From Halobacterium litoreum (lineage in GTDB: Archaea; Halobacteriota; Halobacteria; Halobacteriales; Halobacteriaceae): DNA of 64,000 nucleotides. Location of the stretch: contig NZ_CP089466.1 of NCBI RefSeq assembly GCF_021233415.1, positions 2,480,001-2,544,000 of the forward strand. The letters are read 5' to 3'. Below, piece by piece: positions 15,215-30,111 of the stretch. How positions within the stretch are numbered: the stretch's first letter is position 1; each line of letters begins with the position of its first letter. The notes under the pieces are model-generated. The model searched no databases. It was not told the origin of the DNA and was given only the letters and a program-made list of their open reading frames with translations. Made by a program: the position numbers and the translations under genes.

Positions 15215-15985
15215 ATGGGGAACCGCAAGGACCACTACTACAACAAGTCCAAGCAGGAGGGGTACCGCTCGCGGGCGGCGTACAAACTCAAGCAGATAGA
15301 CCGCGAGTTCGGCGTGCTGTTCGGCGGCGCGACGGTCGTCGACCTCGGCGCGGCGCCGGGCGGGTGGCTGCAGGTCGCCGCCGAGGAGGTCGGCGCGCGC
15401 GGGAAGGTCGTCGGCGTCGACTTCCAGAACATCAGCGACTTCGAGACGGAGGCGGGCGTGACGACGATTCGCGGCGACATGACCGAGGAGGAAACCCGAG
15501 AGCGCATCCGGGACGCCGCGAACGGCGTGGACGTGGTCGTCTCCGACATGGCGCCGAACATGACCGGCGAGTACAACCTCGACCACGCGCGCTCCGTCCA
15601 CCTCGCGCGACAGGCGCTGGACACGGCCCGCGAGGTGCTCGTGGACGGCGGGCACTTCGTCGTGAAGGTCTTCGACGGGCAGGACTTCGAGGGCTTCCTC
15701 GCGGACGTGGAAGACGAGTTCGCGTTCGCGCGGACGTACACGCCGGACGCCTCCCGCGATTCGTCTTCGGAGGTGTACGTCGTCGCGAAGAACCGCGTGG
15801 ACGCGCCGGTCGCCGAGGGCGACACCCTCGACGTGGAAATCACCGACGAGGGCGACGAGGGCGACGGCATCGCCAAAGTCGAGGGGTACACGCTGTTCGT
15901 CGGCGACGCGGACGCCGGCGAGACGGTCGAAGTTGAAGTGACTGACGTGAAGCCGAACTACGGCTTCGCGGAGCGCCGCGACTAG
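15215..15985 (+). CDS. rlmE: 23S rRNA 2'-O-uridine methyltransferase RlmE/FtsJ with TRAM domain
   Basis: 256 aa. Residues 1-195 are an FtsJ-type SAM methyltransferase: SRAAYKLKQID (catalytic Lys), VVDLGAAPGGW (SAM motif I), SDMAPNMTG (catalytic Asp), GGHFVVKVFDG (Lys), and SSEVYVVAK (Glu), giving the K-D-K-E tetrad. Residues about 205-250 are a TRAM RNA-binding domain (AKVEGYTLFVGDADAGETVEVEVTDV), typical of haloarchaeal members. Its stop interlocks with the convergent yhhQ-like stop in a CTAG. Confidence 0.95.
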   Translation: MGNRKDHYYNKSKQEGYRSRAAYKLKQIDREFGVLFGGATVVDLGAAPGGWLQVAAEEVGARGKVVGVDFQNISDFETEAGVTTIRGDMTEEETRERIRDAANGVDVVVSDMAPNMTGEYNLDHARSVHLARQALDTAREVLVDGGHFVVKVFDGQDFEGFLADVEDEFAFARTYTPDASRDSSSEVYVVAKNRVDAPVAEGDTLDVEITDEGDEGDGIAKVEGYTLFVGDADAGETVEVEVTDVKPNYGFAERRD

Positions 15986-16704
15986 TCGCTCGCGGGGTTC
16001 GGTGCGGCGAGCCCGCGGTCGCGGAACGCGCCCACGACGCCGTAGACGAACGGCGTGTCGAGGACGGCGATGAGGAGTTTGAGGACGTACTGGCCGACGA
16101 GCAGGCCGAGAATCTGGTCGAGGGAGTTCGCGGTGCCGACGCCGAAGAACGTGGGCGCCGCCCAGAACGCGACGGTGATGAAGATGACCGTGTCGATGGC
16201 CTGGCTGGTCGCCGTGGAGCCGACGTTGCGGAGCCAGAGGTAGGCGCCGTCGGTGCGCTCGCGGAGCGCGTGGAACGCGAGCACGTCCCAGTTCTGGCTG
16301 ACGACGTACGCGAGCAGGCTGCCGACCACGACGTTCGCCGACGACCACAGCACCCGCGAGAACTGCTCCTGGCCGACCGGGGAGAACGGCGCGACGGGCG
16401 CCTCGATGGTGGTGTAGACCAGCCCGAGCATCACGAGCGTCATCGCGAACCCGACGTTCACCATCACCTGCGCGGCCCGGCGGCCGTACAGTTCGGAGTA
16501 ACAGTCCGACGCGAAGAACGTCAGCGCGTACGCCAGCGCGGCGCCCGGCATCACGAGCGCGCTCCCGGTGTGCGGGAGACTCAGGCCGAAGGGCAACTGG
16601 AACATGAGAATCTTCGACGCCGTGAGTTGGGCAGTGACCAGAGAGGTGACGAACAGGCCGACGAGGACGACGCGGCCGGCCGCGAGGCGGTCCTCACTCG
16701 TCAT
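15982..16704 (-). CDS. Queuosine-precursor-type vitamin/7-deazapurine transporter (YhhQ/VUT)
   Basis: 240 aa, about six membrane helices. Family marks: LTASKILMFQLP, the FFASDCYSELYGRRAAQVMVNVGF loop, SQAIDTVIFITVAFW and GQYVLKLLIAVLDTPFVYG. In archaea such transporters probably import preQ0 or a related base for archaeosine synthesis; that is inference from the family. Its start overlaps the end of the upstream RHH gene by 11 bp, so both form one operon, now expressed across the left end of the mobile element. Confidence 0.92.
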   Translation of the reverse strand: MTSEDRLAAGRVVLVGLFVTSLVTAQLTASKILMFQLPFGLSLPHTGSALVMPGAALAYALTFFASDCYSELYGRRAAQVMVNVGFAMTLVMLGLVYTTIEAPVAPFSPVGQEQFSRVLWSSANVVVGSLLAYVVSQNWDVLAFHALRERTDGAYLWLRNVGSTATSQAIDTVIFITVAFWAAPTFFGVGTANSLDQILGLLVGQYVLKLLIAVLDTPFVYGVVGAFRDRGLAAPNPASD

Positions 16705-16870
16705 CGTCGAGGCGGCCCTGTCGGCCGTCGATGTCGTCGAGCACGTCGAGTGTTTTCCGGATGGACGCGCGGATGGCGTCGCTTCGGTTCACGAACTTCC
16801 CGTCGTCGCCGACGTGGTCGTCCAAGTCCTCGAGGAGTTCCTCGGGAACTTCGACGCTTATCTTGGGCAT
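16694..16870 (-). CDS. Ribbon-helix-helix (CopG-type) regulator, integration target of the element
   Basis: 58 aa, MPKISVEVPEELLEDLDDHV, ending GRLDDDE. The beta strand PKISVEVP, helix EELLEDLDDHV, turn and second helix SRSDAIRASIRKTL-like segment (NRSDAIRASIRKTL here) make a classic CopG/NikR-like RHH DNA-binding domain. Too short for most ORF filters. It overlaps the yhhQ-like start by 11 bp. Its first four codons lie in the 13-bp left attachment repeat, so the mobile element is integrated exactly across its start codon without changing the protein. Confidence 0.88.
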   Translation of the reverse strand: MPKISVEVPEELLEDLDDHVGDDGKFVNRSDAIRASIRKTLDVLDDIDGRQGRLDDDE

Positions 16871-16871
16871 A
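16859..16871. repeat. attL: left 13-bp attachment repeat
   Basis: TATCTTGGGCATA. On the minus strand it reads codons 1-4 of the RHH gene (ATGCCCAAGATA) plus one upstream base. Identical to the right copy at 27716-27728. Confidence 0.85.
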
Positions 16872-16910
16872 ACTCACTCACCTTCTTGAGACTCTATTAT
16901 CCTTATCCGG
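16872..16910 (-). promoter_or_regulatory. Surrogate promoter for the RHH-yhhQ operon, supplied by the element
   Basis: Reading leftwards, the element end offers GGATAATAGA (16892-16901), centred 27 nt before the RHH start codon, the same spacing as the lost native TATA box. A GGTGAG stretch at about -12 may act as a Shine-Dalgarno site. Weaker than the native TTTATATT box; activity is inferred from position. Confidence 0.5.
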
Positions 16911-16937
16911 TGGACTGTATCACACTCTCGCAGTCGA

Positions 16938-16977
16938 AGTGCTCGCATAGTATTCTCTTAAGAATATTCAGAGCACT
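16938..16977. terminator. Nested inverted repeat near the left end
   Basis: AGTGCTC (16938-16944) pairs with GAGCACT (16971-16977) and encloses TATTCT-CTTA-AGAATA (16951-16966). The 40-nt structure lies between the leftward tbp gene and the RHH operon, so it could end tbp transcription or be a recombinase arm site. The rest of 16871-17098 has no gene that I can support. Confidence 0.45.
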
Positions 16978-17098
16978 CAACTTAAAAGACACCGTTCGTC
17001 GGCTGTACATCACAACAGTAGATTCAATTCAAGACCCCATGAATTATTTCCATCCACTACCATTCAAAAAGAGAGTATCTAATCATTTTAGAAGCGTG

Positions 17099-17635
17099 TC
17101 AGAAGGTTTCGATCTCAGCCTGGAGAGACTCAAACGCCATCTCTGCATCTTTCTTACTGCGACCGCCGGTGATGACCACTTTCCCGCTCGCAAAGATGAG
17201 AAGGACACAGTTGGTGTATTCAGGTCGGTAGACCAGACCGGGGAACTGCTCGGGTTCGTACTCTGTATCCTCGAACCCAAGTCGGACAACCATCGCATTG
17301 AGGTCAATGTCTTGGTCAAGGTTCCCGACACAGACGACGTTGCGGATGGCGAAGTTGGGATCGTTGATGTCTTCGATGAGACTGAGGTCTACCAAGATAG
17401 ACAGTAGATGGTCCCGCGCCTCCTCGATATCTTCTATTGACTCGCCACCTCGAATCGCGTAGGTCCCTGTTCGGTAGACGAGAATTAACGAGTTGCCTGT
17501 CCGCATCTGTATAGTCGGCGGCGCAGGTCGGTGGCTATCATCGTATTCAGCCAGAGGAATGTCTGCAGCGAGTTCCTGTAGGTCAATTTCGATGCCCAAA
17601 TCGCCAGATCCCACGACGTTAACGATCTCGACCAT
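17099..17635 (-). CDS. TATA-box-binding protein paralog, first repeat degenerate
   Basis: 178 aa, the usual archaeal TBP length, with both direct repeats (about 3-88 and 95-178). The second repeat is canonical: EYEPEQFPGLVY (125-136) and LIFASGKVVITGG (146-158). In the first repeat the start IVNVVGSGDLG is kept, but the segment matching EQFPGLVY is replaced by DDSHRPAPPTI (32-42), and the strand matching LIFASGK is LVYRTGT. The phenylalanines that wedge into TATA DNA are therefore missing from one half. Encoded in the mobile element, divergent from the LAGLIDADG-like gene with one shared TATA box. Probably an element-specific initiation factor or an antagonist of host TBP. Confidence 0.88.
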   Translation of the reverse strand: MVEIVNVVGSGDLGIEIDLQELAADIPLAEYDDSHRPAPPTIQMRTGNSLILVYRTGTYAIRGGESIEDIEEARDHLLSILVDLSLIEDINDPNFAIRNVVCVGNLDQDIDLNAMVVRLGFEDTEYEPEQFPGLVYRPEYTNCVLLIFASGKVVITGGRSKKDAEMAFESLQAEIETF

Positions 17636-17651
17636 CCTAATGTTTCGTAGA

Positions 17652-17667
17652 GGAAGATATATCCGAC
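17652..17667. promoter_or_regulatory. Shared palindromic TATA box between tbp paralog and rightward operon
   Basis: GATATATC (17656-17663) is a perfect 8-bp palindrome, centred 24.5 nt before the tbp-paralog ATG (17635, leftward) and 28.5 nt before ATG 17688 (rightward). No other TATA-like box lies in the 52-bp gap, so one box likely serves both directions; this is why I start the rightward gene at 17688. Confidence 0.6.
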
Positions 17668-17687
17668 CACTCTTAATGCGATATGGT

Positions 17688-19088
17688 ATGGTCGGTCTTG
17701 GTCAAGTTGATCTTAAAACATTGTTGTCCGACGAGGAGATCGTCGGGCAGTTGCACGACGCCGGACGGACTCGTGATTACTCCCAAGAGTATACGGTAAC
17801 GGAGACCGCAAGTGGAAGGCTCCGAGTAAAGGGAGGGAACAAAGCAGTCGAATTCGACCGATACCACGAACTCGACCCCTCACTATTGATTTTCCTCGGG
17901 TTGTATGGAGGCGACGGTGACAAGACCGGATCCGTCGGATTCGGTCAGAAGAGCATCGACATCATGGAGCACGCCTACGACGAGATGGTCGAGTTCTTCG
18001 GTCACGAGTTCGACGTCACCTACCACATCACCGAAGATAGCCTGTTCTTCGAATCGGACGAGATGCAGGCCGAGCTGGAGGCGATGGACCACGACGGCGA
18101 ACCGCTGGAAAAGAAGAAACAGTATCTCATCGACGAGGTGTGGGAGATGCTGGAAGACCGAGGGATGCATGTTGACAGCGTCACTGCCACTGTTAGCGAC
18201 GTAAAAGGGGCTCGTAAGGCAGGACAGTCCAGCCGCGAGGATCTTATCGACCTCCGTGGCTCTAAGCCATTTCTTCCTATCATCCTCAAACTGATAGAAG
18301 GCGTCACAGCGACACTCTCAGATGACTTGCAATCGTATCCGAGCGATGATCCTTGGCTCGAATGGAACGACAATCCCTCCGATCTCTCCGCCTACGAAAT
18401 TAACATCCCTGACTACGTCGAGAATGCCGAGACATGTCAGTACTACACTGGCTCGGGCAAGCTCCGGCAGTACAAAATCGAGAAGAACTACGACGGCGTG
18501 ACGACGCTCCGGAAGCCCTATGGACAGACATTCGATGTCCACTCGGTAGCCGAGATCGGACCGCATTTCCTGTATATCGCGGGCCTCTATATGGCTGAAG
18601 GAGGGACACCGAAGGAGGTCTTAGTTTCCTTCTACGAGGAACCGTCTGATACTAGCCTCTCCATCGAATTCGTTTCGACAGAGAACGAGGAACTAGAAAT
18701 CCTGATTGATGGCTTCAATTCCGTGTGCGAAGACTTCGACGACTTTCTTAACTACTGGAAGGTGAAGATCGGGAGCCAGTATATGTACGAGACTGGGAAC
18801 GCCGCCGAGAAGATCGGTGCTCCAGTACTTCGCAGCGGGACGAAGGGACAGGGCAAGTCCCGCTCGTTCGAAGTCGCAGAGGGAATCAAGAAGTGGGGCA
18901 TCAAGACGTTCCCTGCTCTTGGGGAGATCGAGCAGTTCTTCAGTCACATCGAGCTGACTGGCGCAGGCATTCCACGGTGGCACATTGCCTTCTCCAGTTC
19001 GCCAGCAGTCCTCTTCTTCGCGCTAATGAACGATCTCGCATTCTATCCTGAGCGCGTCGAGCACTACGAGGTGAGCAAGGATGAGTAA
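17688..19088 (+). CDS. LAGLIDADG-like two-motif protein, putative nuclease
   Basis: 466 aa. Two segments match the LAGLIDADG helix: IFLGLYGGDG (residues 68-77) and LYIAGLYMAEG (295-305), each followed by beta-strand patterns as in homing endonucleases; the second is better (SIEFVSTENEELEILIDGF after it). Acidic Asp/Glu occupy the catalytic position in both (GDG, AEG). Not embedded in an intron or intein. Cleavage has to be tested; DNA binding only is possible. ATG 17676 is an alternative start. First gene of a rightward operon, overlapping the next gene by 8 bp. Confidence 0.65.
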   Translation: MVGLGQVDLKTLLSDEEIVGQLHDAGRTRDYSQEYTVTETASGRLRVKGGNKAVEFDRYHELDPSLLIFLGLYGGDGDKTGSVGFGQKSIDIMEHAYDEMVEFFGHEFDVTYHITEDSLFFESDEMQAELEAMDHDGEPLEKKKQYLIDEVWEMLEDRGMHVDSVTATVSDVKGARKAGQSSREDLIDLRGSKPFLPIILKLIEGVTATLSDDLQSYPSDDPWLEWNDNPSDLSAYEINIPDYVENAETCQYYTGSGKLRQYKIEKNYDGVTTLRKPYGQTFDVHSVAEIGPHFLYIAGLYMAEGGTPKEVLVSFYEEPSDTSLSIEFVSTENEELEILIDGFNSVCEDFDDFLNYWKVKIGSQYMYETGNAAEKIGAPVLRSGTKGQGKSRSFEVAEGIKKWGIKTFPALGEIEQFFSHIELTGAGIPRWHIAFSSSPAVLFFALMNDLAFYPERVEHYEVSKDE

Positions 19089-20046
19089 TACATTCGCTCA
19101 GCACTTTGGTTTCGACGCAGAGTTCGATCAGTCCGCCTTTGTCGACACGTTTGGCCGAGACAGCCTCGACACCGTAGTCGAGTTCTACCAGGGCGTCGTT
19201 GACAGACGGTCGACCGGATGGATCCCACTGCCGGATATGTTCTTCACCATCGGGGCATGCGAGATGCTCGGAGTTGACCACAGCCCCCTCTCAGACCGAG
19301 TGCCGTCGTATCTGTCGGAATTGCAGGTCGGTGGCGGCTACTGCCCTGTGCCCGAAGAGAAGATGGAAGGATGGCGAGCGGACCGGGAGCCAGACATCTA
19401 TTCGACGTATTATGCGGTCAAAACTCTCGGTCTCCTCGGTCGTTCATCTGGAGTGGATGTCGACACCTTCGTCGCTTCCCAGCAGGACGACGGATACATC
19501 TATAACGAGGAGTGGTCGAACACCATTCCCGAGTACCGATTCGACTCAGAGCTCCGCCAGCAGGTTCTATTGGGGCTCCTCCTGACCGACAATGTCGACA
19601 CGGATCCAATCGTGGCCGAACTCGACGAGAACGAGTTCCTCACGCCCATCTACTACTCGTGGCGGATTCGGAAGCACCTCGATATCGATCCGGCACTCAC
19701 CGATGAAGAAGCCGAGCGACTTGGTGACCTACAGAAGGACGGTGGGTTTCGGGAGTACCGCCTCAGTGACAAGACCGACGAACATGCAGGGAGCGACCAC
19801 CGAACGTGGCGCGACCAGAACCCACCGCACCTTTTCAGCAGCTTCTATGCCTACCATATCGCCAGCGAGACCGACTCTCGATTCAGCTACGACACTGGTG
19901 AGTTCATCGACTTCATCGCTGGGACGGAAGACGAGGAAGGGTTCGGTGTTGACGTCAACGCACGTGAGTTCGAAGCCCCGTTCGGTCGGACGTACACCCC
20001 GCTGGAGCATATGATGGTTCTCCTCACGCCCTCACTCGTACAATAG
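19081..20046 (+). CDS. Prenyltransferase/terpene-cyclase-like alpha-alpha toroid protein
   Basis: 321 aa. Shows repeated toroid motifs: LQVGGGY (81-87), DIYSTYYAVKTLGLLG (105-120), QQDDGYIYNEEW (134-145), and LQKDGGFREY (217-226), the QxxDGG-type turns of protein prenyltransferase beta subunits and squalene cyclases. The DxDD cyclase motif and an obvious zinc triad are not seen, so a binding or scaffold role is as likely as catalysis. Its ATG overlaps the preceding gene by 8 bp, implying a joint function with the LAGLIDADG-like protein. Confidence 0.7.
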   Translation: MSNTFAQHFGFDAEFDQSAFVDTFGRDSLDTVVEFYQGVVDRRSTGWIPLPDMFFTIGACEMLGVDHSPLSDRVPSYLSELQVGGGYCPVPEEKMEGWRADREPDIYSTYYAVKTLGLLGRSSGVDVDTFVASQQDDGYIYNEEWSNTIPEYRFDSELRQQVLLGLLLTDNVDTDPIVAELDENEFLTPIYYSWRIRKHLDIDPALTDEEAERLGDLQKDGGFREYRLSDKTDEHAGSDHRTWRDQNPPHLFSSFYAYHIASETDSRFSYDTGEFIDFIAGTEDEEGFGVDVNAREFEAPFGRTYTPLEHMMVLLTPSLVQ

Positions 20047-20078
20047 GTATAAACGAAATATGGACAAATCTGGGTGTC

Positions 20079-20288
20079 ATGAGGGAGACCAAGAGGGAGA
20101 TTCTTCAGCGAATTGGCCAGGAATCTACGTGGGGATACAACTTGGCTGACGAGTTGGACCTCACGCCTCAAACGGTCTACTCCCATCTGGACGACCTGGA
20201 GGAAGCGGAATACATCGAGCAGTCTGGTGAGGAGTCAGGTCGGACTATATTTTCTCTGACGGAGAAAGGGAAGTCGGAGATCGAGTAG
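20079..20288 (+). CDS. Small winged-helix regulator
   Basis: 69 aa. MRETKREILQRIGQESTWGY, then NLADELDLTPQTVYSHLDDLEEAEYIEQ and a beta wing (GRTIFSLTEKGKSEIE): a complete PadR/MarR-like winged helix and nothing more. Its own TATAAA (20048-20053) lies 28 bp before the ATG, so it can be made as a leaderless mRNA independent of the upstream operon. Convergent with the methyltransferase pair, one base between stops. Likely regulates element genes. Confidence 0.82.
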   Translation: MRETKREILQRIGQESTWGYNLADELDLTPQTVYSHLDDLEEAEYIEQSGEESGRTIFSLTEKGKSEIE

Positions 20289-20289
20289 G

Positions 20290-21822
20290 CTACTTTTCCA
20301 GGAACAGGATCTTCTCTTCCTGGATTGCGTTCTTACTGTGGACTTCGCCGATTGCAGTTGAGTTGAGGCTCTTCTCGACCAGATTCGCCTTCTCGTATCC
20401 AACCATCTCGCCAATGTCGTAGAGGAAGTCATCAGTCGGGATCTCGACGACTTCCTTGTCGTCACCAGCTTTGGTGGTGTTTCGACCGACCACGAGTACG
20501 AAGTTCCCTCCTTCGGGAAGCATCTGGTGCCCTTGATCCAGGACGTCACGCATGTCCCGGAAGTACTTGTAGAGGAGCGCAGCCTTGTTCTTCCGACGGA
20601 ATCCGACGTCGGCGTCAACGTTGAGGTCATAGACGCGCTTGATGAGTTCCTTCACGTTGTCGGGAAGCCAGAGCGAATCATAGTTGTCGAGGAACTCTGC
20701 TTCCAGATCTTCTTTCTCCTGCGGGCGGATCTCACGGTTTCCGATGACCTGTCGTTCGAGGTCGCGTCGGTCCTTCTTCTCCAGCAGTCCCAGCGTGAAG
20801 AGCGAAAGACGATACGTATCGACGTAGGGGAGACCCGTTGCATACGGGGGCGAGCAAACCATATGGTCTATGTCAGGGAGTGAGGTCTCCTCCGCCATTG
20901 TGGTCGCGTCCGCCTGTTCGACGACGGTCTCCTCGTTGAGATCGAACTTTGTCTTAAAGTCCTGCGTATCCTCGACGCGCTTGACGTTCTTGTTGAACCG
21001 GTCTTCGAACATCTCGTAGACGTCGACATCCTCCGGAATCTCGTCAGCACGGAGTACCCGGATCTGATCCTCGTCCTGGTGGGAGACTGTCCGAAGCAGG
21101 TCACTCAGCGTGATGAACAGGAGCTGTCGAACCTGATCGTTCTGGACGTCAGAGATTTGGCTGTGGAGGCCACGGACCTGGTTGATGACGGGGTCCTCGA
21201 ACCACTTATCGAGATAGTCGGGTTCCGGAAGGGTGTACTCCTCGCTAGTGAGTGTTTTGCACGAGAAGGAAAACTCCCGCATCTCGCTGAGGTCTACGTC
21301 GAGCGTGCTGACCTTTGTTCTCGACAGGTAGACCGAGAACGGGTTGATGTCGATGCCGACTGTGTTCAGCGACTCCAGGCGACCCTGGTAGAGCGTCGTC
21401 CCGCTGCCACAGAACGGGTCCATCACCGTATCTCCTGCTTCAAGGTCGAGCAGACTGAAGATCGTAGAGACGAGTTGCGGATAGAACTTACCTGTATACT
21501 CGTGTAGTCCGTGTCCGAGATAGCGGGCCGATTTCCGTGTCCCCTCTGGAACTTCAGTCAGCTCGTATTGGTGCCCTCGCGGAGTGAGAGTTTCGCCCGA
21601 CTCTTGGTTTTTTACCGTCTGAAAGAACGGGAGTGTCTCCAGATTGTACTCGGGAACCTCTGCCTCGGTACTCAGACTGAGACCGTTCTCGACGAGGAAT
21701 GGGTTCTCGGAGATTTCGCCGTACTGCTCCAGAATCTCCTCGCACATGTCCTCCTCGTAGCTCCACATACTGTAGTCTGGATAGACGAGGAGGTAGTCAA
21801 GCATGGTCTGGTTCTCACTCAT
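20290..21822 (-). CDS. DNA methyltransferase (amino-MTase type), second of a pair
   Basis: 510 aa. SAM motif I DPFCGSGT (135-142) precedes the catalytic motif SPPY (324-327), as in N6-adenine/N4-cytosine DNA methyltransferases. HEYTGKFYP (107-115) is the conserved element before the SAM motif. Between motifs is a long target-recognition-like region (about 200-310). Its ATG overlaps the stop of the upstream methyltransferase (ATGA), so both are co-translated. No restriction endonuclease of a known family is adjacent. The base modified cannot be told. Confidence 0.85.
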   Translation of the reverse strand: MSENQTMLDYLLVYPDYSMWSYEEDMCEEILEQYGEISENPFLVENGLSLSTEAEVPEYNLETLPFFQTVKNQESGETLTPRGHQYELTEVPEGTRKSARYLGHGLHEYTGKFYPQLVSTIFSLLDLEAGDTVMDPFCGSGTTLYQGRLESLNTVGIDINPFSVYLSRTKVSTLDVDLSEMREFSFSCKTLTSEEYTLPEPDYLDKWFEDPVINQVRGLHSQISDVQNDQVRQLLFITLSDLLRTVSHQDEDQIRVLRADEIPEDVDVYEMFEDRFNKNVKRVEDTQDFKTKFDLNEETVVEQADATTMAEETSLPDIDHMVCSPPYATGLPYVDTYRLSLFTLGLLEKKDRRDLERQVIGNREIRPQEKEDLEAEFLDNYDSLWLPDNVKELIKRVYDLNVDADVGFRRKNKAALLYKYFRDMRDVLDQGHQMLPEGGNFVLVVGRNTTKAGDDKEVVEIPTDDFLYDIGEMVGYEKANLVEKSLNSTAIGEVHSKNAIQEEKILFLEK

Positions 21823-23189
21823 CGCTCGAACACCAGAATTGCTTCCTTCTTCGCCCGTGCGTTCTCAGGGTTGAACGTCTTCTTGGTGGAGTCGATGTTC
21901 CGGAAGAACTCCTTCTCGACCTCAAATGCGGTGTCTTCCGCGAGTTCCTTCATCAACTCGTTATTCCGGACGATTTCACCTTCCAGTTTCGAGTCGCCGA
22001 TGACCATACAGAGGCGACCACCCTCCTTTGTGTTCTTCTCCAGATTCCGAAGACACGCCGTCATGTTCTCGCGGAACGTTTCCATGTTCTCCTCCTTCGA
22101 TCGGTTCTGGTAGACGAGGTGCGCCCCTATCTCGTCATGTTTCATCTGACGGGGCTTCATGTCCAGCCAGAACATCCGATACTTGTGGTATAGGTGGTAG
22201 TCGTAGGCGTTAGGATACGGCGGTGACGTGATGATGAGATCGGCCTTCTCGTCGAGCGTAAAGTCCTCTCGGAGATCCTGAGAGAAGACGGTCGGAGTGT
22301 ACTTCTCGTCGCAGTCGTTGTAGAAGTCCTCCATACCCCGAACCATCCGGTTGAGTTTATTCTCGTATTTGCGGATGGTCTCGCCGGGCTCCATTTCGTT
22401 GTCGACGCGAGTGTACCGCGTGTTACTGTCCTGGTATGAGACGTTGACGATGATACTGGAGAACCCGGTTTTGAAGAAGTCCTGGAGACTGTCGTCCTCA
22501 ACCTCGTTGATGTATCCCTTGATTATGGACAGCTCGCGGATCGCATTGTCCGAGAACCATCCGTCCAGTTTTGGGATGTCAGGAACCTCATACTCTTCTT
22601 GGAAGTTATGGGCTCGTTTGACATCGTCGAGGTGGTCACGGACATTGTTACCCAAAGTTTCCGGCTCCAACGGGGTCGCCTTCGACCGTGTCATTAGAGT
22701 GGCAAGAGGGTTCAAATCAGTCCCGACTGCGTGACGATCTTTGCGAATCGCCTCGACAACTGCAGTTCCACAGCCGCAGAATGGATCCCATACGACATCC
22801 CCTTTCTCGGAGAAGTATTTCATTAGAGTCGCCGGGATCTGCGGGATGAATTTTGCAGGGTAAGGATGGTAGTCGTGTGTAAATTTATTTGTTTTTGCAT
22901 CTTCAAACCGCCAGTCGACGAAATCTAAGTGGTCCGATTCCATTCTATACTCTCTGTGTTGGCTACTCTCTTCCTCATGCGTGATATACCCAATGTTTCC
23001 TAAGCCACTATCTCCACTACTGCCGCTGCTCAAAAATTGAAATATATTTGATGGTTTTGTACAGTAGGGAGGGGATATCATGTTCTGTGAAAATCCTGGC
23101 TGATGTTTTTGCTTGATCTGATGTTTACTAGTATTCTCCGCGCCGTTATGCTCAGACGGTATTCCTTTTTGTTGTGGGTTCAAACTCAT
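21819..23189 (-). CDS. DNA methyltransferase (amino-MTase type), first of a pair
   Basis: 456 aa from ATG 23189. HPYPAKFIP (108-116), SAM motif DPFCGCGT (135-142) and SPPY (322-325) stand at nearly the same residues as in its partner, so the two are paralogues. This colinearity and a GGAGG Shine-Dalgarno 8 nt before ATG 23189 decide the start. The catch is a Ser/Gln/Asn-rich N-terminal 80 residues of low similarity to anything; ATG 22943 would remove it. Expressed behind a structured leader (23190-23268). Confidence 0.82.
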   Translation of the reverse strand: MSLNPQQKGIPSEHNGAENTSKHQIKQKHQPGFSQNMISPPYCTKPSNIFQFLSSGSSGDSGLGNIGYITHEEESSQHREYRMESDHLDFVDWRFEDAKTNKFTHDYHPYPAKFIPQIPATLMKYFSEKGDVVWDPFCGCGTAVVEAIRKDRHAVGTDLNPLATLMTRSKATPLEPETLGNNVRDHLDDVKRAHNFQEEYEVPDIPKLDGWFSDNAIRELSIIKGYINEVEDDSLQDFFKTGFSSIIVNVSYQDSNTRYTRVDNEMEPGETIRKYENKLNRMVRGMEDFYNDCDEKYTPTVFSQDLREDFTLDEKADLIITSPPYPNAYDYHLYHKYRMFWLDMKPRQMKHDEIGAHLVYQNRSKEENMETFRENMTACLRNLEKNTKEGGRLCMVIGDSKLEGEIVRNNELMKELAEDTAFEVEKEFFRNIDSTKKTFNPENARAKKEAILVFER

Positions 23190-23193
23190 TTGT

Positions 23194-23266
23194 GCTTCCT
23201 CCACGGAAGCGTGGTCGCGTGCTCCTACCACGCGGCCTCTGACTTTCGAGGCTGTACCATGCTTCC
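23194..23266 (-). promoter_or_regulatory. Candidate switchable leader RNA (Y-shaped) before the methyltransferase pair
   Basis: As minus-strand RNA: GGAAGCATGGT (23266-23256) pairs with ACCACGCTTCC (23215-23205; ten Watson-Crick pairs and one G-U) and closes a three-way junction with arms GCCTC/GAGGC (8-nt loop) and CGCGTG/CACGCG (7-nt loop). The same GCTTCC can instead pair with GGAAGC (23199-23194), which contains half of the GGAGG ribosome site. The two folds exclude each other, as in a translational riboswitch. Confidence 0.6.
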
Positions 23267-23287
23267 CCACTACTATTAGTATATAGA

Positions 23288-23303
23288 ACGCTATAAATCT
23301 TGA
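23288..23303 (-). promoter_or_regulatory. TATA box of the methyltransferase leader
   Basis: ATTTATAG on the minus strand (23298-23291). A start 27 nt downstream would be near 23268, two bases before the closing stem of the Y-shaped leader, giving a leader of about 79 nt. Confidence 0.55.
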
Positions 23304-24145
23304 AATCAATCTGTCATGTGCCGTTATACGCCCATTGGATGTGTGACTTATTTGGGTTTAATACTAGACAGTATCTCGATCTCAGATGCCGGGTTAGGAT
23401 GACGCCGTTCACGAGGATACTCAGACGACTAAGAAACTCTTGGAACTCGGGGGCGTCCAAGCGTGTTCGTGTTACGAACAGTCTATTCTATGAGGAGTAC
23501 AATCGGACATCGACGCGACTCGATAGGGCACTCTGGCTAATCGGAAAAATTGGGTCAGCGGAGGATAGACTACTTGAGCGAGAAGGTAGATCGGTACTGA
23601 CAACGTGTGGTTGGTTTTGCTCAACTCCGTTCGACTATCCCAAAAATGGCCCTTATTTGGAGAGGCATCCGGACAGGCGTTTATGTTTTTTATTACCCAA
23701 ATCTGCAGTTTTCTTGAATTGATGAGGTCGTCTCAATCGTGGCCGAACGGTGTTTTGCAGTTCTAGAACTGGCAGAGAACCCCTACCCTATGAGGGGCCG
23801 GCTCGTTACTGTTACTCGGTAGTCCCTCCGCTGCTATCCGCTGTAGAGTGATAGTAGCTCAGTCTATGAGTGTGTTGGCTCGATTCCAATGGGTAGCCAT
23901 ATGTCATAGACCGTGTTTTCGGGCGAGACCAACGTAGTTCAGTCTACGACTGAGCTAAGATCTCTATTGAGTCCCCGCTGAGCCAGTCCGTAACCAGACC
24001 TATTAGATATTCTAAATTAGTAAGATCCTCAACCACTCGCGTATCGACAGTCGCCGTGACCAGAACAGAAGTCAATAACCACTATACCAGAGAAAAGATG
24101 CGTATGTGGCTGAAGATCCTACTAAGTTAAGCTATCTAATACATC
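23304..24145. other. Gene-poor 840-bp stretch with structured segments
   Basis: No gene I can support. An open frame at 23300-23722 (+) lacks acidic halophile composition, promoter and any recognisable motif. A 34-codon open stretch at 23717-23820 (IDEVVSIVAERCF start) looks more protein-like but has no start codon and could be a gene remnant. A structured segment is listed separately at 23856-23956. The rest is AT-rich and unassigned; it may hold control or origin sites of the element. Confidence 0.4.
23856..23956. ncRNA. Candidate structured RNA or cis element
   Basis: AGCTCA (23856-23861) pairs with TGAGCT (23951-23956) and encloses an 8-bp stem GTCTATGA/TCATAGAC (23862-23869 with 23904-23911), itself holding TGGCT/AGCCA (23876-23880 with 23895-23899). 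The right part can also form its own hairpin AGTTCAG-CTGAGCT (23936-23956). GTAGCTCAGTCTATGAG and GTAGTTCAGTCTACGAC (23854, 23934) are 17-bp near-repeats. Strand and expression unknown. D-arm-like wording is present, but no full tRNA. Confidence 0.35.
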
Positions 24146-25348
24146 CTACCCGAAAGCCGGGAAGTTGAGGAAGTCCGGCCACACAAATTCATCTTTGAGG
24201 GCGAACTGCTCCGTGTTCCTGCCGTTGTCCTTCTTCACGACTTGGCCTAAACCAAGAGTCTCCAGTAGATCCATTCGCTTGCGCAACGTCTTGCGCGTTG
24301 AATCTGTCCCGCGGTGAGTCCTAAGATCCTTGGACGTGATCGGATTCGGTGTTTCAGGATCAACCACAGCACGAACGATTCCTCGGCGTTCTTTATGCAT
24401 CGTACTCAACGCCAGACGACTAGACACTTGGACGTCGTCTAGCTGGAGTTCTTCGCGGCCACACAACAGAGCGTGCCCGCGGGCGATATTTCGCAGACTG
24501 CTCATAATTCGATGTTCTCCTTCTCGTGTTCCGGTTTCAGTAGGTGCTCGGCAGTACGCAACAAGATGGGCAAGATAGACGATCCCATCACGAACCTCAC
24601 CGTGGGCAGCCGAATCCCACGTCACACTACCGTAGCCGCCATAGTGTTCCCAGACGTTACGTAGGAACGAGATTACCTCCGTTTGGCATTCAGCAACTTG
24701 CTCTCCATATTCACGCCCCTCAAACACATCGACAGCGACCTCGTGGGGACTCGCTTTACGTGGCAGGTAATGGAAGACCAGTCGATTTCCGACGTGGCCC
24801 ATAGCACTCCAAGCCCGGCCGTCAAGCGGCGTCGTCGCTCCGATGAGGGCGAATCGATAGTCGCCGTCGTAGCCACGCGAGCCGTGTGATCCAGTATCTC
24901 GGTGATAGCCTGAACCGTCCATCACTCGGGCGATTGTCGCCATCGTCGACCGAATCTGCTCGAAACTACCGCTAAACCAGCCTGCCATATCCGGATTGAC
25001 GAGCGACTTGCGACGGATCTTCGGTAACAGATCGTACTCTGCTAGCTCCTCCTCATTCTTGGACGGTTCATGACTTACGAACGCGGCGGGGGTGAGGTCG
25101 TCGCTCCAGTAGACTAGTTCCTCGTCGTTGAACTCGGCCCCTTTGAGGAAGTCGAGAGCCGTAGTCTTCCCTGCGCCGCTAGGACCGACAACAGCGATCC
25201 CCTCACAGCTATCCGGTCCGTCTAGCAGCAACGTCGTCTTCGTTGAGAGAACAGCCTCCGTGACGAGCGCGATACGCTTATCGAACACGTCCTCGACATC
25301 CTGAAGGACGGCGTCAAGGTTAGAAGCTGTACTATCGAGGTTAGTCAT
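24146..25348 (-). CDS. P-loop ATPase with C-terminal winged helix
   Basis: 400 aa. Walker A GPSGAGKT at residues 55-62; FALIGATTP (around 165-175) resembles a sensor-1 strand. No classic DExx Walker B is obvious. The C-terminal 90 residues (ITSKDLRTHRGTDSTRKTLRKRMDLLETLGL...) look like a winged helix, the layout of AAA proteins that load or license DNA machinery in archaeal plasmids and viruses. Its start overlaps the upstream 107-aa gene by 8 bp. Likely the replication, partition or control ATPase of the element; the exact family is not recognised. Confidence 0.7.
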   Translation of the reverse strand: MTNLDSTASNLDAVLQDVEDVFDKRIALVTEAVLSTKTTLLLDGPDSCEGIAVVGPSGAGKTTALDFLKGAEFNDEELVYWSDDLTPAAFVSHEPSKNEEELAEYDLLPKIRRKSLVNPDMAGWFSGSFEQIRSTMATIARVMDGSGYHRDTGSHGSRGYDGDYRFALIGATTPLDGRAWSAMGHVGNRLVFHYLPRKASPHEVAVDVFEGREYGEQVAECQTEVISFLRNVWEHYGGYGSVTWDSAAHGEVRDGIVYLAHLVAYCRAPTETGTREGEHRIMSSLRNIARGHALLCGREELQLDDVQVSSRLALSTMHKERRGIVRAVVDPETPNPITSKDLRTHRGTDSTRKTLRKRMDLLETLGLGQVVKKDNGRNTEQFALKDEFVWPDFLNFPAFG

Positions 25349-25664
25349 CAGAGACCTCCGGCTTCGAGAAGACTCTGTTCCAATGGTTGCTCTTACGTGG
25401 CTCAGATTTGACTGAGACTAATCTACGCGGAATCGTTGCGTGAGCGGCTACTATGTATCCGTCAATAACGCGAACCCAGTCTACCTCACACAGAGGATGA
25501 GCAATAATCCATCTAATAGCGGGAGGGACTTCGGTGGAGATCGTCATTCGGTCTGTTTCCTTGGAGCCGTACAGACGGACCTCCTTCTCGCAGGGGAACA
25601 TCTCGGGGTCTTCCCGAACTTCTCTGTTCTGGAGCAGCTCGGGATCCGGGTCATTGATCCTCAT
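25341..25664 (-). CDS. Hypothetical protein, middle gene of ATPase operon
   Basis: 107 aa. Not recognised. N-terminal third is acidic; the middle (VPPAIRWIIAHPLCEVDWVRVIDGYIVAAHATIP) is hydrophobic/beta-like. Strong Shine-Dalgarno GGAGGGG (25678-25672) sits 7 nt before the ATG, and the ATG overlaps the stop of the 31-aa leader gene (ATGA). Its end overlaps the ATPase start by 8 bp. The three are surely co-translated; it may bind the ATPase. Confidence 0.7.
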   Translation of the reverse strand: MRINDPDPELLQNREVREDPEMFPCEKEVRLYGSKETDRMTISTEVPPAIRWIIAHPLCEVDWVRVIDGYIVAAHATIPRRLVSVKSEPRKSNHWNRVFSKPEVSDD

Positions 25665-25756
25665 GATCGGACCCCTCCATATTTGCTGCTATAGTCAATA
25701 CCTGATACTGTCGACTTCCATGACCGCTTAGGACGGTCAATCTGTGTTCGGCTCAT
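25661..25756 (-). CDS. Hidden 31-aa leader gene of the ATPase operon
   Basis: Encodes MSRTQIDRPKRSWKSTVSGI and 11 more residues ending GGVRS; basic, unlike most halophile proteins. The TGA overlaps the ATG of the 107-aa gene as ATGA, the same coupling used elsewhere in this element, which is the main argument that it is translated. The start context CACAAATGAG is identical over 10 bp to that of the first methyltransferase. A TGACCG/CGGTCA hairpin lies inside it (25721-25739). It may be a translated leader peptide. Confidence 0.5.
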   Translation of the reverse strand: MSRTQIDRPKRSWKSTVSGIDYSSKYGGVRS

Positions 25757-25798
25757 TTGTGGTCCTACGGGATTCAACTGAGGTTTCCCTGAGACCCC

Positions 25799-25855
25799 AC
25801 GACCGCCTACCTACGGTATCGGCATCACCGTCCTCGACACTCCGAGGGCGGTCGT
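25799..25855 (-). promoter_or_regulatory. Second Y-shaped leader RNA candidate, before the ATPase operon
   Basis: ACGACCGC (25799-25806) and GCGGTCGT (25848-25855) form an 8-bp closing stem around two hairpins, ACGGT/ACCGT (25813-25831) and CCTCG/CGAGG (25832-25847). On the minus strand a TATA-like GTAATACA (25889-25882) would start transcription near 25859, just before the stem. GACCG and CGGTC recur in the downstream 31-aa gene, so alternative pairings are possible here too. Confidence 0.45.
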
Positions 25856-25958
25856 TCTAAAATCCAAGAGTGACATTTGATGTATTACAGCGTCAGTTCG
25901 CCACCTACATTAACATTTCGACACTCTAAGCAGTGTAAAAATCTAAAAATCGATTAAT

Positions 25959-26918
25959 TTATACCGATTTCGTGTCGCCGAACTTCTGGTAAGCATCTTT
26001 GACATCATCGTCGAGGATTCTAAGATAGCGTTCAGTCGTATCCAAGTTCTTGTGGCCCAAGTGCTTCTGGAGCGTCCGAATGTCGACACCGGACTTCAGA
26101 GCGTGGATAGCGTGTCCGTGCCGTAAGCTATGTGTCGTGATTCGCCATTTCGGCTTCCCGCCGGCGTCTGTGTACATCTGCTCTTGACAACCGGCGTTCT
26201 TGGCTGCCTGAACCACTAGCTTCCCGACCGTCTGTCTCGAAATCTGCTCTGATCGTTGACTCGGAAAGAGGTACGGGGACGTGGTCGATGGCCCATACGC
26301 ATCCCGATACCCGCTATCGATCCACTGGTCGAGAAGGAAATCAAGAGATGGCTGGTAGTAGACTGTCCGCCAGTCGTCCGTCTTACTGGAATAGACCCGA
26401 ATGCTCCGCTCCTCTCGGTCGATATTCTCTAGCTCCATACCAGCGAGTTCGTGACCTCTGACTCCGGTCTGCCACAGAAGCCGGATGATCAGCCGGTTCC
26501 GAAGTTGTGGCGACGGAGCGTGTTCGACCATCGCCTCCTTCTCGTCCTCGGTGACGTAGACGACATCTGCCTCGTTGTGCTTCTTCGTCCCGTTCGTGAG
26601 CGACCGTAGGTTACTCTGGTCGATTTCGTCGGCCGGGTTCTCCTCGATGACGTCCTTCCGGTCGAGGAATTTGTAGAACAGGCGAACACCGGACAGAGAG
26701 CTGTCGATTGAATTGGGTGCGTACCCCTTGTTCGCCAAGTGAGCGAGGAAGTCCTCAATTTCGAGCGGTCCAATCTCAGTCGGTTCGTATCCCGTCTCCT
26801 CCAGCCACTCGTTGAATCGGCGGAGCGCGTTCTTCCGTGCTTCGTGCGTGCCCGCTGACTTCATCCCCTTGACCCGCTTGAGAAAGCGGTTCATATGGTC
26901 GTTCTCGAACTCGGGCAT
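25959..26918 (-). CDS. Tyrosine recombinase / integrase of the element
   Basis: 319 aa. N-terminal SAM-like core-binding domain (residues 5-100), then the catalytic domain with Arg in TGVRGHELAGM, HSLRHGHAIH (His-x-x-Arg), GHKNLDTTERYLRI with the His and the Tyr nucleophile. XerC/D-type length. It should catalyse recombination between the 13-bp repeats at the element ends. Its ATG follows the upstream RHH-wHTH gene by 3 bp, so it is the last gene of a three-gene leftward operon. Confidence 0.95.
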   Translation of the reverse strand: MPEFENDHMNRFLKRVKGMKSAGTHEARKNALRRFNEWLEETGYEPTEIGPLEIEDFLAHLANKGYAPNSIDSSLSGVRLFYKFLDRKDVIEENPADEIDQSNLRSLTNGTKKHNEADVVYVTEDEKEAMVEHAPSPQLRNRLIIRLLWQTGVRGHELAGMELENIDREERSIRVYSSKTDDWRTVYYQPSLDFLLDQWIDSGYRDAYGPSTTSPYLFPSQRSEQISRQTVGKLVVQAAKNAGCQEQMYTDAGGKPKWRITTHSLRHGHAIHALKSGVDIRTLQKHLGHKNLDTTERYLRILDDDVKDAYQKFGDTKSV

Positions 26919-26921
26919 CGA

Positions 26922-27470
26922 TCACACCTCCTTGTAGTAGCGGCCGTCGTCGGTCTCTCTGACCGCATACGTCGTCTCCTGTAGGTGGTCGAGAGCGGCC
27001 TGTATCTGGTACCGAGGCACGTCGAGTCGCTCCGACAGCCACTCAATCGATCCCTGTTCCGGAGCAGGGACGCCGTCTGCCGTTTCGGAAATAACTGGCT
27101 CCGTGTGGGCCTCCTTCTTCGAGGGAAGCATCTCGAAGATATCGTCCGCAAGGGCCTCCGTTTCGGGTCCAACCGCCTCGCCGGTGACGGCTTCCCGAAC
27201 GTCCGTGAGTTGCCCTTTGATCCCGTCGAGGTGCTGTGCGAGTTGCTCCTGTTGGGTGTTCAGTTCCGTTAGCTGTTCGTGGATCTCCTGCGAGACCTCT
27301 CCACTGGAGCCGCTGGCTCGGTCGTGGAGGTATCGATTGACGGCTACGCGCACGAGTTGCGAGAGTGAATCGGCGTCGGGGTCGTCCTGAGCAGCCGACT
27401 CCCACTCATCTTTGGTGTCTGGATACACAGCAAGGGTGACGATCTCGTTTCGACGATCCTCGCCGTTCAT
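26922..27470 (-). CDS. RHH-like/coiled-coil/winged-helix protein upstream of integrase
   Basis: 182 aa from ATG 27470 (MNGEDRRNEIVTLAVYPDTK). N-terminal part (to about residue 55) reads like an RHH-type DNA-binding unit with SLSQLVRVAVNRYL; residues about 60-95 form a coiled coil (EIHEQLTELNTQQEQLAQHL); the C-terminal 55 residues (IEWLSERLDVPRYQIQAALDHLQET) look like a winged helix. Resembles haloarchaeal DUF5805-type proteins found next to XerC/D-like integrases. Probably controls or directs excision. Its ATG overlaps the stop of the small Cys gene. Confidence 0.75.
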   Translation of the reverse strand: MNGEDRRNEIVTLAVYPDTKDEWESAAQDDPDADSLSQLVRVAVNRYLHDRASGSSGEVSQEIHEQLTELNTQQEQLAQHLDGIKGQLTDVREAVTGEAVGPETEALADDIFEMLPSKKEAHTEPVISETADGVPAPEQGSIEWLSERLDVPRYQIQAALDHLQETTYAVRETDDGRYYKEV

Positions 27471-27658
27471 TCTGACCGCCCCACGTTGTAGTCCTGTTCG
27501 GGATCGAAGCACTCGAAGCACGGGAGATCGTCGCCATCTGGACCGGCACACCATTCCTTATCATTCTGACAAGTATCGTCCTCCTCGTCAATAGTCGGTT
27601 TAGCGAACTGGTCGATAGTCGTGACAGCGCGGCCGCTGTAAGGCGTTTCTGAAGCCAT
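27467..27658 (-). CDS. Small four-Cys protein, first gene of integrase operon
   Basis: 63 aa, acidic, with four cysteines (CQND...EWCAG...LPCFEC) that could hold one zinc. No family recognised. An AATTAATATCC box about 29 bp before the ATG gives a leaderless promoter for the whole small-Cys, RHH-wHTH, integrase operon. ATGA overlap with the next gene supports that it is real. Confidence 0.65.
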   Translation of the reverse strand: MASETPYSGRAVTTIDQFAKPTIDEEDDTCQNDKEWCAGPDGDDLPCFECFDPEQDYNVGRSE

Positions 27659-27715
27659 CTCTACATAGCATACTAAGACTGATAGGATATTAATTGTATT
27701 GGATAGTTGACACTA

Positions 27716-27728
27716 TATCTTGGGCATA
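27716..27728. repeat. attR: right 13-bp attachment repeat
   Basis: TATCTTGGGCATA, identical to attL. With the native bases to its right it forms GGGCATATGCCC (27722-27733), a perfect 12-bp palindrome, flanked by TCT/AGA; the pre-integration site was therefore a near-perfect 20-bp inverted repeat, fitting a tyrosine recombinase core. Confidence 0.85.
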
Positions 27729-27760
27729 TGCCCTAGAGAATATCTGGAGAATATAAACTC
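27725..27760 (-). promoter_or_regulatory. Orphaned native promoter of the RHH-yhhQ operon
   Basis: On the minus strand, TTTATATT (27757-27750) lies 27 nt before an ATG at 27727 that continues CCC AAG ATA and then meets TAG in the element. It is the original leaderless promoter and first four codons of the RHH gene, cut off by integration. Confidence 0.75.
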
Positions 27761-27838: not shown

Positions 27839-30019
27839 CTACTCCCCGACCGCCGTCCCGGACTGCCCGCGGCGCCCGCCGAGCGTCACGAGGAACAGTA
27901 TCGCCAGCCCCACGAAGTACATCGCCACCATCGGGAGCGCGATGAGGAGCATCGTGTAGAGGCTGTCCGGCGTGACGAGCGCGCCGAACGCGAACATCGA
28001 GATGACGGGGACGCGCCAGCGCCGCCGCATCGTGTCATAGGAGACGATGCCGCCGAGGTGGAACAACACCATCGTCACCGGGATGTCCGCGAGCAGGCCG
28101 ATACCGGCGGTGAGCAGGAACACCGTCCACGCGAAGTTGCTGACGGTGTAACTGATCATCATCTCCGCGCGGAGCGCGTCGTAGACGAGGTAGGAGATGA
28201 CCTCGGGCGCGACGAACGTGTAGCCGACGTAACTCCCGGCGAGCAGGCCGCCGACGATGCCGCCGCCCCAGACGGCGATGGTGCGCCGGTCGCCGGTCAC
28301 CCAGCCGCGGTCGGCGAGCGCCGGCCACACGTAGTAGACCATCAACGGGAGCACGCAGATGGCGGCCAGCACGGTCGAAATCTTCACCTGGAAGACGAGC
28401 GCCTCGACCGGGTGGAGCGTGATGGGCCAGTCGACGGTGCCCGCGGGCTGGACGTCCTGGGGGATGCGCGCGATGAAGTCGTCCCGCAGGTCGCCGAAGC
28501 CGCCGTAGTAGAGCCACCCGAAGATGCCGACGAGCAGCGCCATGAACGACCCGACGATGCGGAACGCGCGCGACCGCAGGCTGTCGAAGATAAAGCGGAT
28601 GTCGTAGTAGTAGCCGCCGATGTCGTCCTCGGTGGTCTCCTCCTCGGTGAACGCGTCCACCATCCCGGCGGCCGTGGACTGGACGGGGTTCGAGTCCTCG
28701 CCCTCGCCCTCCGCGGCGGCTTCGGCTTCCGCTTCGAGGCGTTCCTGGACCTGGTCGTAGCGGTTCAAAATCGCCTGGGCTTTCTCGTCGTCGCCGTCCT
28801 CCATGGCGTCTTGGGCTTCAGCGAGCGCCTCGCCCTCGCTCATCTGCGCGAACGTCTCGGGCGGCGCGGCGCGAACGCCGGGCGCGTCGAGGATGCCGAG
28901 GTCGATGTCCGCCGGGGAGGCGCCGGGGCCGCCGCGCGCGGCGACGGTCTGTGCGGCGCGCTCGATGGCGACGTACACGTAGTAGAGGAGCGCGGCGAGG
29001 AGCGCGAGCGCGGCGAAGATGCCGCCCAGAATCAGGTAACTGGTCGCGGGGTCGACGCCGAACGCCTCGGCGGCGGTCGGGACGTTCACGGACGACCCGA
29101 TGAAGTCGAGGGCGTCGTTGAACGCGGCGACGCCGCCAAAGTCCCCGACCGCGTAGCCCGCGGCGAACCCGAGGACGCCCGCGCCGAGCACGCGGTTCCA
29201 GCGCTCCCGGAACACGCCGCTGACGTCGACGTGTTCGCGGCCGCGTTTCATCGTCACGACGACCTTCGCGAGGTACAGCGAGAGGCCGTAGAGGAGGATG
29301 AGCGGCGCCGCCCACAGAATCTGCGTGAACGGGTCCGGCGGCGAGAAGAACGCGCCGAACGCGAAGATGCCGACGACGGCGTACTTCCACTTGTCGCGGA
29401 ACGTCTCGTAGGGGACGATGCCGGAGTACGACAGCGCCGACATCAGCAGCGGGAGCTGGGCGGCGAGCGAGAACGAGAGCGCGAGGAAGAAGATGAACTC
29501 CGTCCACTTCACGATGGAGTACTTCGGCGCGAGGCCGGCGCCCGTGGCGTTCCCCGCGAGGAAGTCGAACATCAGCGGGAAGAACAGGAAGTAGGCGTAC
29601 GCGATGCCGACGACGGCGAGCACCGCGCTCATCGCAGCCAGTCCGAGAATCTGGAGCGTGGAGACGTTGACGTCGGGGATTATGTCGCGTTCCTGCAGGG
29701 GTTCTCTGGCGTGATAGAGCAGGACTGGAATCGCGGCGGCGCCGCCGGCGAACAGCCCGATTTTCACCTGCATCAGGATGACGTCGAACGGCGTCTGCGC
29801 GATGACGGACGCGCTCTCGACGAGCAGGTCCTCCCGGAGTTGGGGCCAGACGTACAGCCGCATCAGGAAGATGCCGCCGAGCAGGCCGACGACGAACGCG
29901 ATGAAGACGTGCTGGAGGCGTCGCTGTGCGGAACCGAGCAACACCCCGATGGTCTCCCGGCCGGAGTTGATGGCGCGGGCCGTCCCAGGGTCCACGATGT
30001 CCGAGCCGGAGTCACTCAT
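27839..30019 (-). CDS. Tandem TatC protein translocase (TatCt)
   Basis: 726 aa, twice the length of ordinary TatC. Two fused TatC domains (about 25-310 and 450-715), each with six helices, are joined by extra membrane segments and a long acidic soluble linker (about 370-450). Part of the Sec-independent twin-arginine export path, which haloarchaea use for most secreted proteins. The tandem form is a haloarchaeal speciality. ATG 30019 is chosen from MSDSGSD; a CAATTATC box lies about 25 bp upstream. Divergent from the single-domain tatC, 92 bp apart. Confidence 0.93.
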   Translation of the reverse strand: MSDSGSDIVDPGTARAINSGRETIGVLLGSAQRRLQHVFIAFVVGLLGGIFLMRLYVWPQLREDLLVESASVIAQTPFDVILMQVKIGLFAGGAAAIPVLLYHAREPLQERDIIPDVNVSTLQILGLAAMSAVLAVVGIAYAYFLFFPLMFDFLAGNATGAGLAPKYSIVKWTEFIFFLALSFSLAAQLPLLMSALSYSGIVPYETFRDKWKYAVVGIFAFGAFFSPPDPFTQILWAAPLILLYGLSLYLAKVVVTMKRGREHVDVSGVFRERWNRVLGAGVLGFAAGYAVGDFGGVAAFNDALDFIGSSVNVPTAAEAFGVDPATSYLILGGIFAALALLAALLYYVYVAIERAAQTVAARGGPGASPADIDLGILDAPGVRAAPPETFAQMSEGEALAEAQDAMEDGDDEKAQAILNRYDQVQERLEAEAEAAAEGEGEDSNPVQSTAAGMVDAFTEEETTEDDIGGYYYDIRFIFDSLRSRAFRIVGSFMALLVGIFGWLYYGGFGDLRDDFIARIPQDVQPAGTVDWPITLHPVEALVFQVKISTVLAAICVLPLMVYYVWPALADRGWVTGDRRTIAVWGGGIVGGLLAGSYVGYTFVAPEVISYLVYDALRAEMMISYTVSNFAWTVFLLTAGIGLLADIPVTMVLFHLGGIVSYDTMRRRWRVPVISMFAFGALVTPDSLYTMLLIALPMVAMYFVGLAILFLVTLGGRRGQSGTAVGE

Positions 30020-30111
30020 TGGGTTCGGGTTGCCCGCTCGCAATTATCAATCTTCCCGTCGAACGCCAAAAGAAAGCCTATAACGGCCCCGTCGCCAAGT
30101 GGCGTACAGGA
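30020..30111. promoter_or_regulatory. Divergent tatC promoter region
   Basis: Two leaderless-type boxes: GATAATTG on the minus strand (30048-30041, about 25 nt before the tandem tatC ATG) and CCTATAACGG on the plus strand (30077-30086, about 30 nt before ATG 30112). Confidence 0.55.

Follow-up and report, generated by a model that had tools for sequence, protein, structure and literature searches.

An archaeal integrative element that enters at the start of a near-universal RHH gene and probably carries a copy of the gene's operator

tRNA genes are the targets of most archaeal integrative elements described so far. Among the systems that invite comparison with the one described here, the SXT/R391 elements are bacterial, ~100 kb in size and conjugative, and their tyrosine recombinase directs them to the 5' end of prfC (PMC2791158, PMC4344509). 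ICEKp1 and ICEclc target the 3' ends of tRNA genes, and the promoter that serves the integrase gene (int) switches according to state, as measured in ICEKp1 (PMC13023037). The pTN3-like archaeal integrases act on the 5' halves of tRNA genes, with the element then driving expression of the target (PMC8371274). In a survey of thaumarchaeal elements, 14 out of 14 protein-gene insertions were at the 3' end; attachment (att) sites were short (13 bp in one case), and the elements carried methyltransferase or restriction–modification (R-M) cargo and replication modules (PMC6563490). Here, we describe an element of ~10.9 kb from Halobacterium litoreum, for which we found no description in the literature searched. 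It lies within a 64-kb stretch of contig NZ_CP089466.1 (positions 2,480,001 to 2,544,000; hereafter the window, numbered from its first base), at the start of a gene for a ribbon-helix-helix (RHH) protein. Our reading, to which we give a probability of about 0.72, is that this is an integrative element that enters at codons 1–3 of the RHH gene, displaces the promoter of that gene and restores RHH-regulated expression through its own left end. The features that define the site and the integration genes are as follows:

15982–16704, minus strand: Vut_1 transporter gene, downstream of the RHH gene and overlapping it
16694–16870, minus strand: target gene, encoding a 58-aa RHH (CopG-family) protein (Pfam RHH_1)
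16859–16871, plus strand: attL, the left direct repeat (shared core CTTGGGCAT at 16862–16870)
25959–26918, minus strand: tyrosine recombinase (XerD-like), 319 aa (Phage_integrase, E 1e-31)
26922–27470, minus strand: helix-turn-helix (HTH) DNA-binding protein gene paired with int; N-terminus RHH-like, C-terminus with a weak winged-helix match
27467–27658, minus strand: small cysteine-containing open reading frame (ORF), 63 aa, first gene of the int module
27716–27728, plus strand: attR, the right direct repeat (shared core CTTGGGCAT at 27719–27727)
27839–30043, minus strand: TatC gene, right chromosomal flank

An earlier note on this DNA had reported perfect 13-bp copies of TATCTTGGGCATA at 16859–16871 and 27716–27728, located where the base composition changes, with a tyrosine recombinase inside the right end and an RHH start codon, not a tRNA gene, as the target. 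All of this is borne out: the G+C content (300 bp) drops from 65% to 44% across the left copy and rises from 50% to 67% across the right one; the recombinase gene lies 0.8 kb inward of the right repeat, from which it is separated by two small genes; the ORF at 16694–16870 starts in the left copy; and there is no tRNA gene within the window, nor in L064, L065 or L066. From core to core, the element measures 10,857 bp. The fear that the 13-bp sequence might recur by chance is met by the genome itself, as its 2.7 Mb contain two exact copies only, both at the element ends. By itself, however, the repeat is weak evidence, because the G+C-rich window holds 213 exact 13-mer pairs spaced 8–16 kb apart. 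The boundaries are made secure by the ungapped empty site in a relative, and by four further insertions at the identical point.

With the outer flanks joined, a match was found in 26/26 genomes of the family. The uninterrupted site that the earlier note had proposed to look for is present in relatives, and in G009 the joined flanks align ungapped, with 40 identical bases through the junction; further members of the genus have uninterrupted sites with divergent promoters. A search of 392 Halobacteriales genomes for relatives of the integrase gave as its nearest matches G208 (99% identity), G186 (98%), G015 (68%) and G197 (60%), and each of these belongs to an element that occupies the same RHH start and has int on its TatC side (the G186 insertion is record PXQV01000013.1 by contig position). 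In all, two families contain five insertions at one and the same base, the elements measuring 8.2–15.6 kb, and the five integrases that target the RHH gene form one clade (support 95/91). The 9-bp CTTGGGCAT is the only sequence common to both ends in 5/5 insertions; the other insertions share 9–12 bp end to end, the extra matching bases varying from case to case. Consequently, the core was cut from the 13 bp of the repeat to 9 bp, the remaining bases being chance matches. Joining the outer flanks does restore a near-perfect 20-bp palindrome, as had been claimed; its proposed role as the recombinase core was rejected, since GGGCATATGCCC occurs only here and in G009 among the sites seen, and is missing at the four other occupied sites and at most empty ones. 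No consistent inverted repeat was found around the core in attP. Larger gaps between the RHH and TatC genes in G009, G011 and G013 were considered as further elements and dismissed: their content is mainly G+C-rich ORFs, and nothing in them suggests an int module.

An integrase gene between direct repeats that match the target, and an uninterrupted site in relatives, are what is expected of a tyrosine-recombinase element, and both are present here. As int is intact and 0.8 kb from attR, the element is not of the SSV (suicidal) type, in which att lies inside int and integration splits the gene; nor does it resemble the SNJ2-type haloarchaeal integrases, which insert at a tRNA gene.

The target is near-universal in the Halobacteriales, being present in 173/195 genomes. 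It does not occupy the place of cdrS, which sits with ftsZ2 (PMC7439475); the neighbour here is the Vut_1 transporter gene. Insertion at CTTGGGCAT, which forms codons 1–3, leaves the RHH coding sequence intact and separates it from its promoter. Native RHH promoters mostly have a TATA-like element ~30 nt ahead of the start codon; after integration, the native promoter is found at 27729–27760, 10.9 kb from the RHH gene, where it points toward three minus-strand genes that overlap or nearly abut, namely the small ORF, the HTH gene and int. The same holds family-wide, with the native promoter ending up >8 kb away and facing the int operon. Neither this separation of gene and promoter nor the likely operator copy at the element end, described below, is mentioned in the earlier note. 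The regulatory features are:

16877–16882, minus strand: GGTGAG, Shine–Dalgarno-like, supplied by the element, 7–12 nt before the RHH start codon
16950–16967, minus strand: operator-like inverted repeat ATATTC-N6-GAATAC, element left end; the genome's only inverted copy
16982–16987, minus strand: TTTTAA, TATA-like, candidate outward element promoter, proposed from a comparison of the left ends of three elements
27738–27753, minus strand: operator-like direct repeat TATTC-N6-TATTC, displaced native RHH promoter; the genome's only direct copy
27752–27757, minus strand: TATA-like element of the displaced native RHH promoter, now facing the int operon

For the operator-like repeat, 76 native RHH promoters (16 from the family and 60 order-wide) were scored for TATTC/GAATA half-sites. 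A match to TATTC-N6-(TATTC/GAATA) at 9 or 10 of 10 positions is present in 25/76, and in 20 of these 25 the site begins at the same position, −23. Perfect half-site pairs occur 13 times at a gap of 6 and 0 times at any of the remaining gaps between 2 and 12; shuffled promoters gave a mean of 0.14 and a maximum of 3. In the host genus the half-sites form a direct repeat, and in several other families an inverted one. At the other junction, the leftmost 150 bp of the element hold a perfect TATTC-N6-GAATA in 4/5 elements (0/500 shuffles each), 64–81 bp inside, and it is the sole perfect copy within each of those four; three of the four share recent ancestry, so that the four represent two independent lineages. 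The copy in the G186 element, TATTCCTACGAGAATA, is identical at 14/16 positions to TATTCCTCGGAGAATA, the native site of G056 and G122. Other genomes contain few TATTC-N6 sites. The repeat probably serves as the operator of the RHH protein; its distribution best fits a dedicated autoregulator that has scarcely any further sites in the genome. Around this site there is also a second, nested inverted repeat, GTGCTC/GAGCAC (16940–16990, and in the left ends of L065 and L066): in three element lineages, GTGCTC lies on the upstream side of the operator-like site, and in two, GAGCAC comes after it.

Sequence comparison directly gives the site and its core, the empty site, the recurrence of the insertion, the displacement of the promoter and an operator-like site upstream of each junction. 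From these we propose the following. The XerD-like recombinase, judged by its family and position, would exchange strands within CTTGGGCAT. The left end of the element would then serve as the new upstream region of the RHH gene, bringing GGTGAG (the GGTG is kept at a similar position before the RHH start in 5/5 elements) together with the inverted repeat. If RHH is an autorepressor that acts at the TATTC-N6 site, the element would swap the RHH promoter and yet keep RHH control. The candidate left-end promoter, TTTTAA, upstream of the operator, would drive the RHH gene when the element is integrated and int when it is circular, and the captured host promoter could drive int in the integrated state; both transcription units would then respond to the host RHH protein. 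More tentatively, the element may use the host RHH protein as an integration sensor, with a feedback loop rewired at each integration and excision: in the circle, RHH would control int, and once integrated it would control its own gene via the element promoter and int via the captured one.

Several observations count against this reading. The half-site was picked after inspection of the promoters, and related promoters are not independent; for both reasons, the gap control carries most weight. The L065 element lacks a full operator and has one clear half-site only. At the native distance, the native-promoter TATA profile scores the element left ends no higher than shuffles; a replacement TATA at that distance was accordingly dropped, and the replacement promoter is instead placed at TTTTAA, further upstream. 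The small ORF ahead of the HTH and int genes may have a promoter of its own, and the repeat could be bound by the element's HTH protein and not by host RHH. The latter leads to an alternative that we regard as unlikely, namely an ordinary element at a gene 5' end, for which codons 1–3 are merely a conserved sequence, the RHH gene is expressed from any element promoter, and the repeat is bound by an element protein or has some other role. It would accommodate L065 readily, and the HTH protein does accompany int family-wide and has an RHH-like N-terminus; however, the same motif occupies a fixed place in the native RHH promoters of element-free genomes, and is nearly absent elsewhere in the genomes.

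It is distinctly improbable that the insertion silences the RHH gene, and Vut_1 behind it, so that the element is a dead island kept by drift. Displacement of the native promoter, the remnant state of one cargo gene and the lack of a native-type TATA score in the left ends would all agree with such decay, but differences in int between elements are mostly synonymous, near-identical element copies exist in other families, the RHH frame is intact and the elements retain the Shine–Dalgarno-like motif. Least credible of all is a chance repeat flanking a horizontally acquired island inserted by homologous recombination: many 13-mer pairs do occur at such spacing in the window, yet it is refuted by the ungapped empty sites and by the four further insertions, which occupy the same base and carry integrases of the same clade.

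Set beside the described systems, the element resembles SXT/R391 in that a conserved protein gene comes to have an end of the element as its upstream region. It differs in being archaeal and of ~8–16 kb, in having no recognised conjugation genes (no conjugation family was found among the tested proteins) where SXT/R391 has such genes and a prfC target, and in bearing the operator-like site of its target at one end. As in ICEKp1 and ICEclc, int lies by an att site and reads away from it, with a host promoter upstream in the integrated state and, in the circle, a promoter of the other end, which here is a candidate; the likeness to ICEKp1 is one of geometry only, gene order and strand agreeing, and is known here from sequence. 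The targets of ICEKp1 and ICEclc keep their promoter, whereas here the target loses its own and would take that of the element. Expression of the target from an element promoter after integration would be shared with the pTN3 type, from which the present element differs in its protein-gene target and intact integrase. With the thaumarchaeal elements it shares a short att, a protein-coding target, cryptic methyltransferase cargo and a probable replication module; unlike theirs, the insertion is at the 5' end.

The element family consists of an int module (small ORF, HTH gene and integrase, the HTH protein being paired with int across the family) with variable maintenance genes and cargo. The element in the window and that of L033 are 89% identical over 4.3 kb, and their integrase proteins 98% identical, whereas the flanking chromosomal proteins are only ~62–63% identical (63% for an FtsJ-like protein); this contrast, along with 54 synonymous versus 5 nonsynonymous codon differences between the integrase genes, speaks for a recent horizontal transfer, with the integrase in working order. 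Three close elements have the int module and ~130 bp of the left end in common and differ in cargo and maintenance gene, the latter being a P-loop ATPase gene in two and a D5_N/DUF5906-type helicase gene in L064; the L066 element encodes a Prim-Pol protein. The ATPase is present in 11/384 genomes, in several beside other, distant integrases and tRNA genes, and we therefore conclude that the modules recombine. Apart from this, the ATPase gene looks like one that belongs to haloarchaeal mobile elements and that no family name describes well: the islands of L100–L105 in which it is found are low in G+C, several also encode a distant integrase, and some are near tRNA-Phe or tRNA-Val genes. No relatives of the integrase, the LAGLIDADG-like protein or the ATPase were found in viral contigs, and the integrase relatives in phage records all have <60% identity. 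For integrases of 41–52% identity, a repeat search resolved no att sites except in L077 (G030; 41% integrase), where the region is flanked by a 44-bp direct repeat in a pilin-like coding sequence; other members of the integrase family may, as this repeat suggests, target other protein genes. The remaining genes of the element are:

17099–17635, minus strand: TATA-binding protein
17688–19088, plus strand: LAGLIDADG-like protein, two motifs
19081–20046, plus strand: toroid-like protein (weak prenyltransferase-toroid match)
20079–20288, plus strand: PadR-like winged-helix protein
20290–21822, minus strand: DNA methyltransferase 2
21819–23309, minus strand: DNA methyltransferase 1 (N6/N4 type)
23398–23597, plus strand: cargo-gene remnant, intact in L033 and L064
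24146–25348, minus strand: P-loop ATPase, probable replication/maintenance gene
25341–25664, minus strand: small ORF ahead of the ATPase gene, kept in L033

The methyltransferase pair (20290–23309) resembles pairs from alphaproteobacterial plasmids that are followed by, or face, a PLD-type nuclease gene. A pair of methyltransferases is also what BfiI-like R-M systems have; their PLD-superfamily nuclease has no counterpart here, as no PLD family was found among the element proteins, and the LAGLIDADG-like and toroid-like proteins are encoded near the methyltransferases. The LAGLIDADG-like protein has no Pfam or PDB match, a single-sequence structure model was unusable (pLDDT 35), and it is absent from the other archaeal genomes searched (392 and 384 per search, overlapping sets) and from phage records. 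Both motifs are, nevertheless, kept in a distant homologue (31% identity) from a Priestia plasmid. On this plasmid, Priestia aryabhattai NZ_CP129634.1 (L085:12001-14536), the LAGLIDADG-like gene is followed by a toroid-like gene, with McrBC genes nearby, so that the pair (17688–20046) is common to an archaeal element and a bacterial plasmid. It is possibly an undescribed defence pair; a restriction or defence role for the cargo as a whole is a guess. The element's own TATA-binding protein (17099–17635) is divergent; a 42% identical relative is encoded in L071, close to a further integrase of the family.

In summary, this family of integrative elements is real and looks active, its target is unusual, and it probably takes over the regulation of that target. 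The 5' end of a near-universal regulator gene has been taken and the target's operator apparently carried along, which illustrates how a regulatory gene can be occupied and yet stay under control. The idea is directly testable, as a 9-bp core is defined, the site is available both empty and occupied, and two binding sites are predicted for a DNA-binding protein that would have almost no others in the genome. The cargo adds a rare LAGLIDADG-like/toroid pair found also on a bacterial plasmid.

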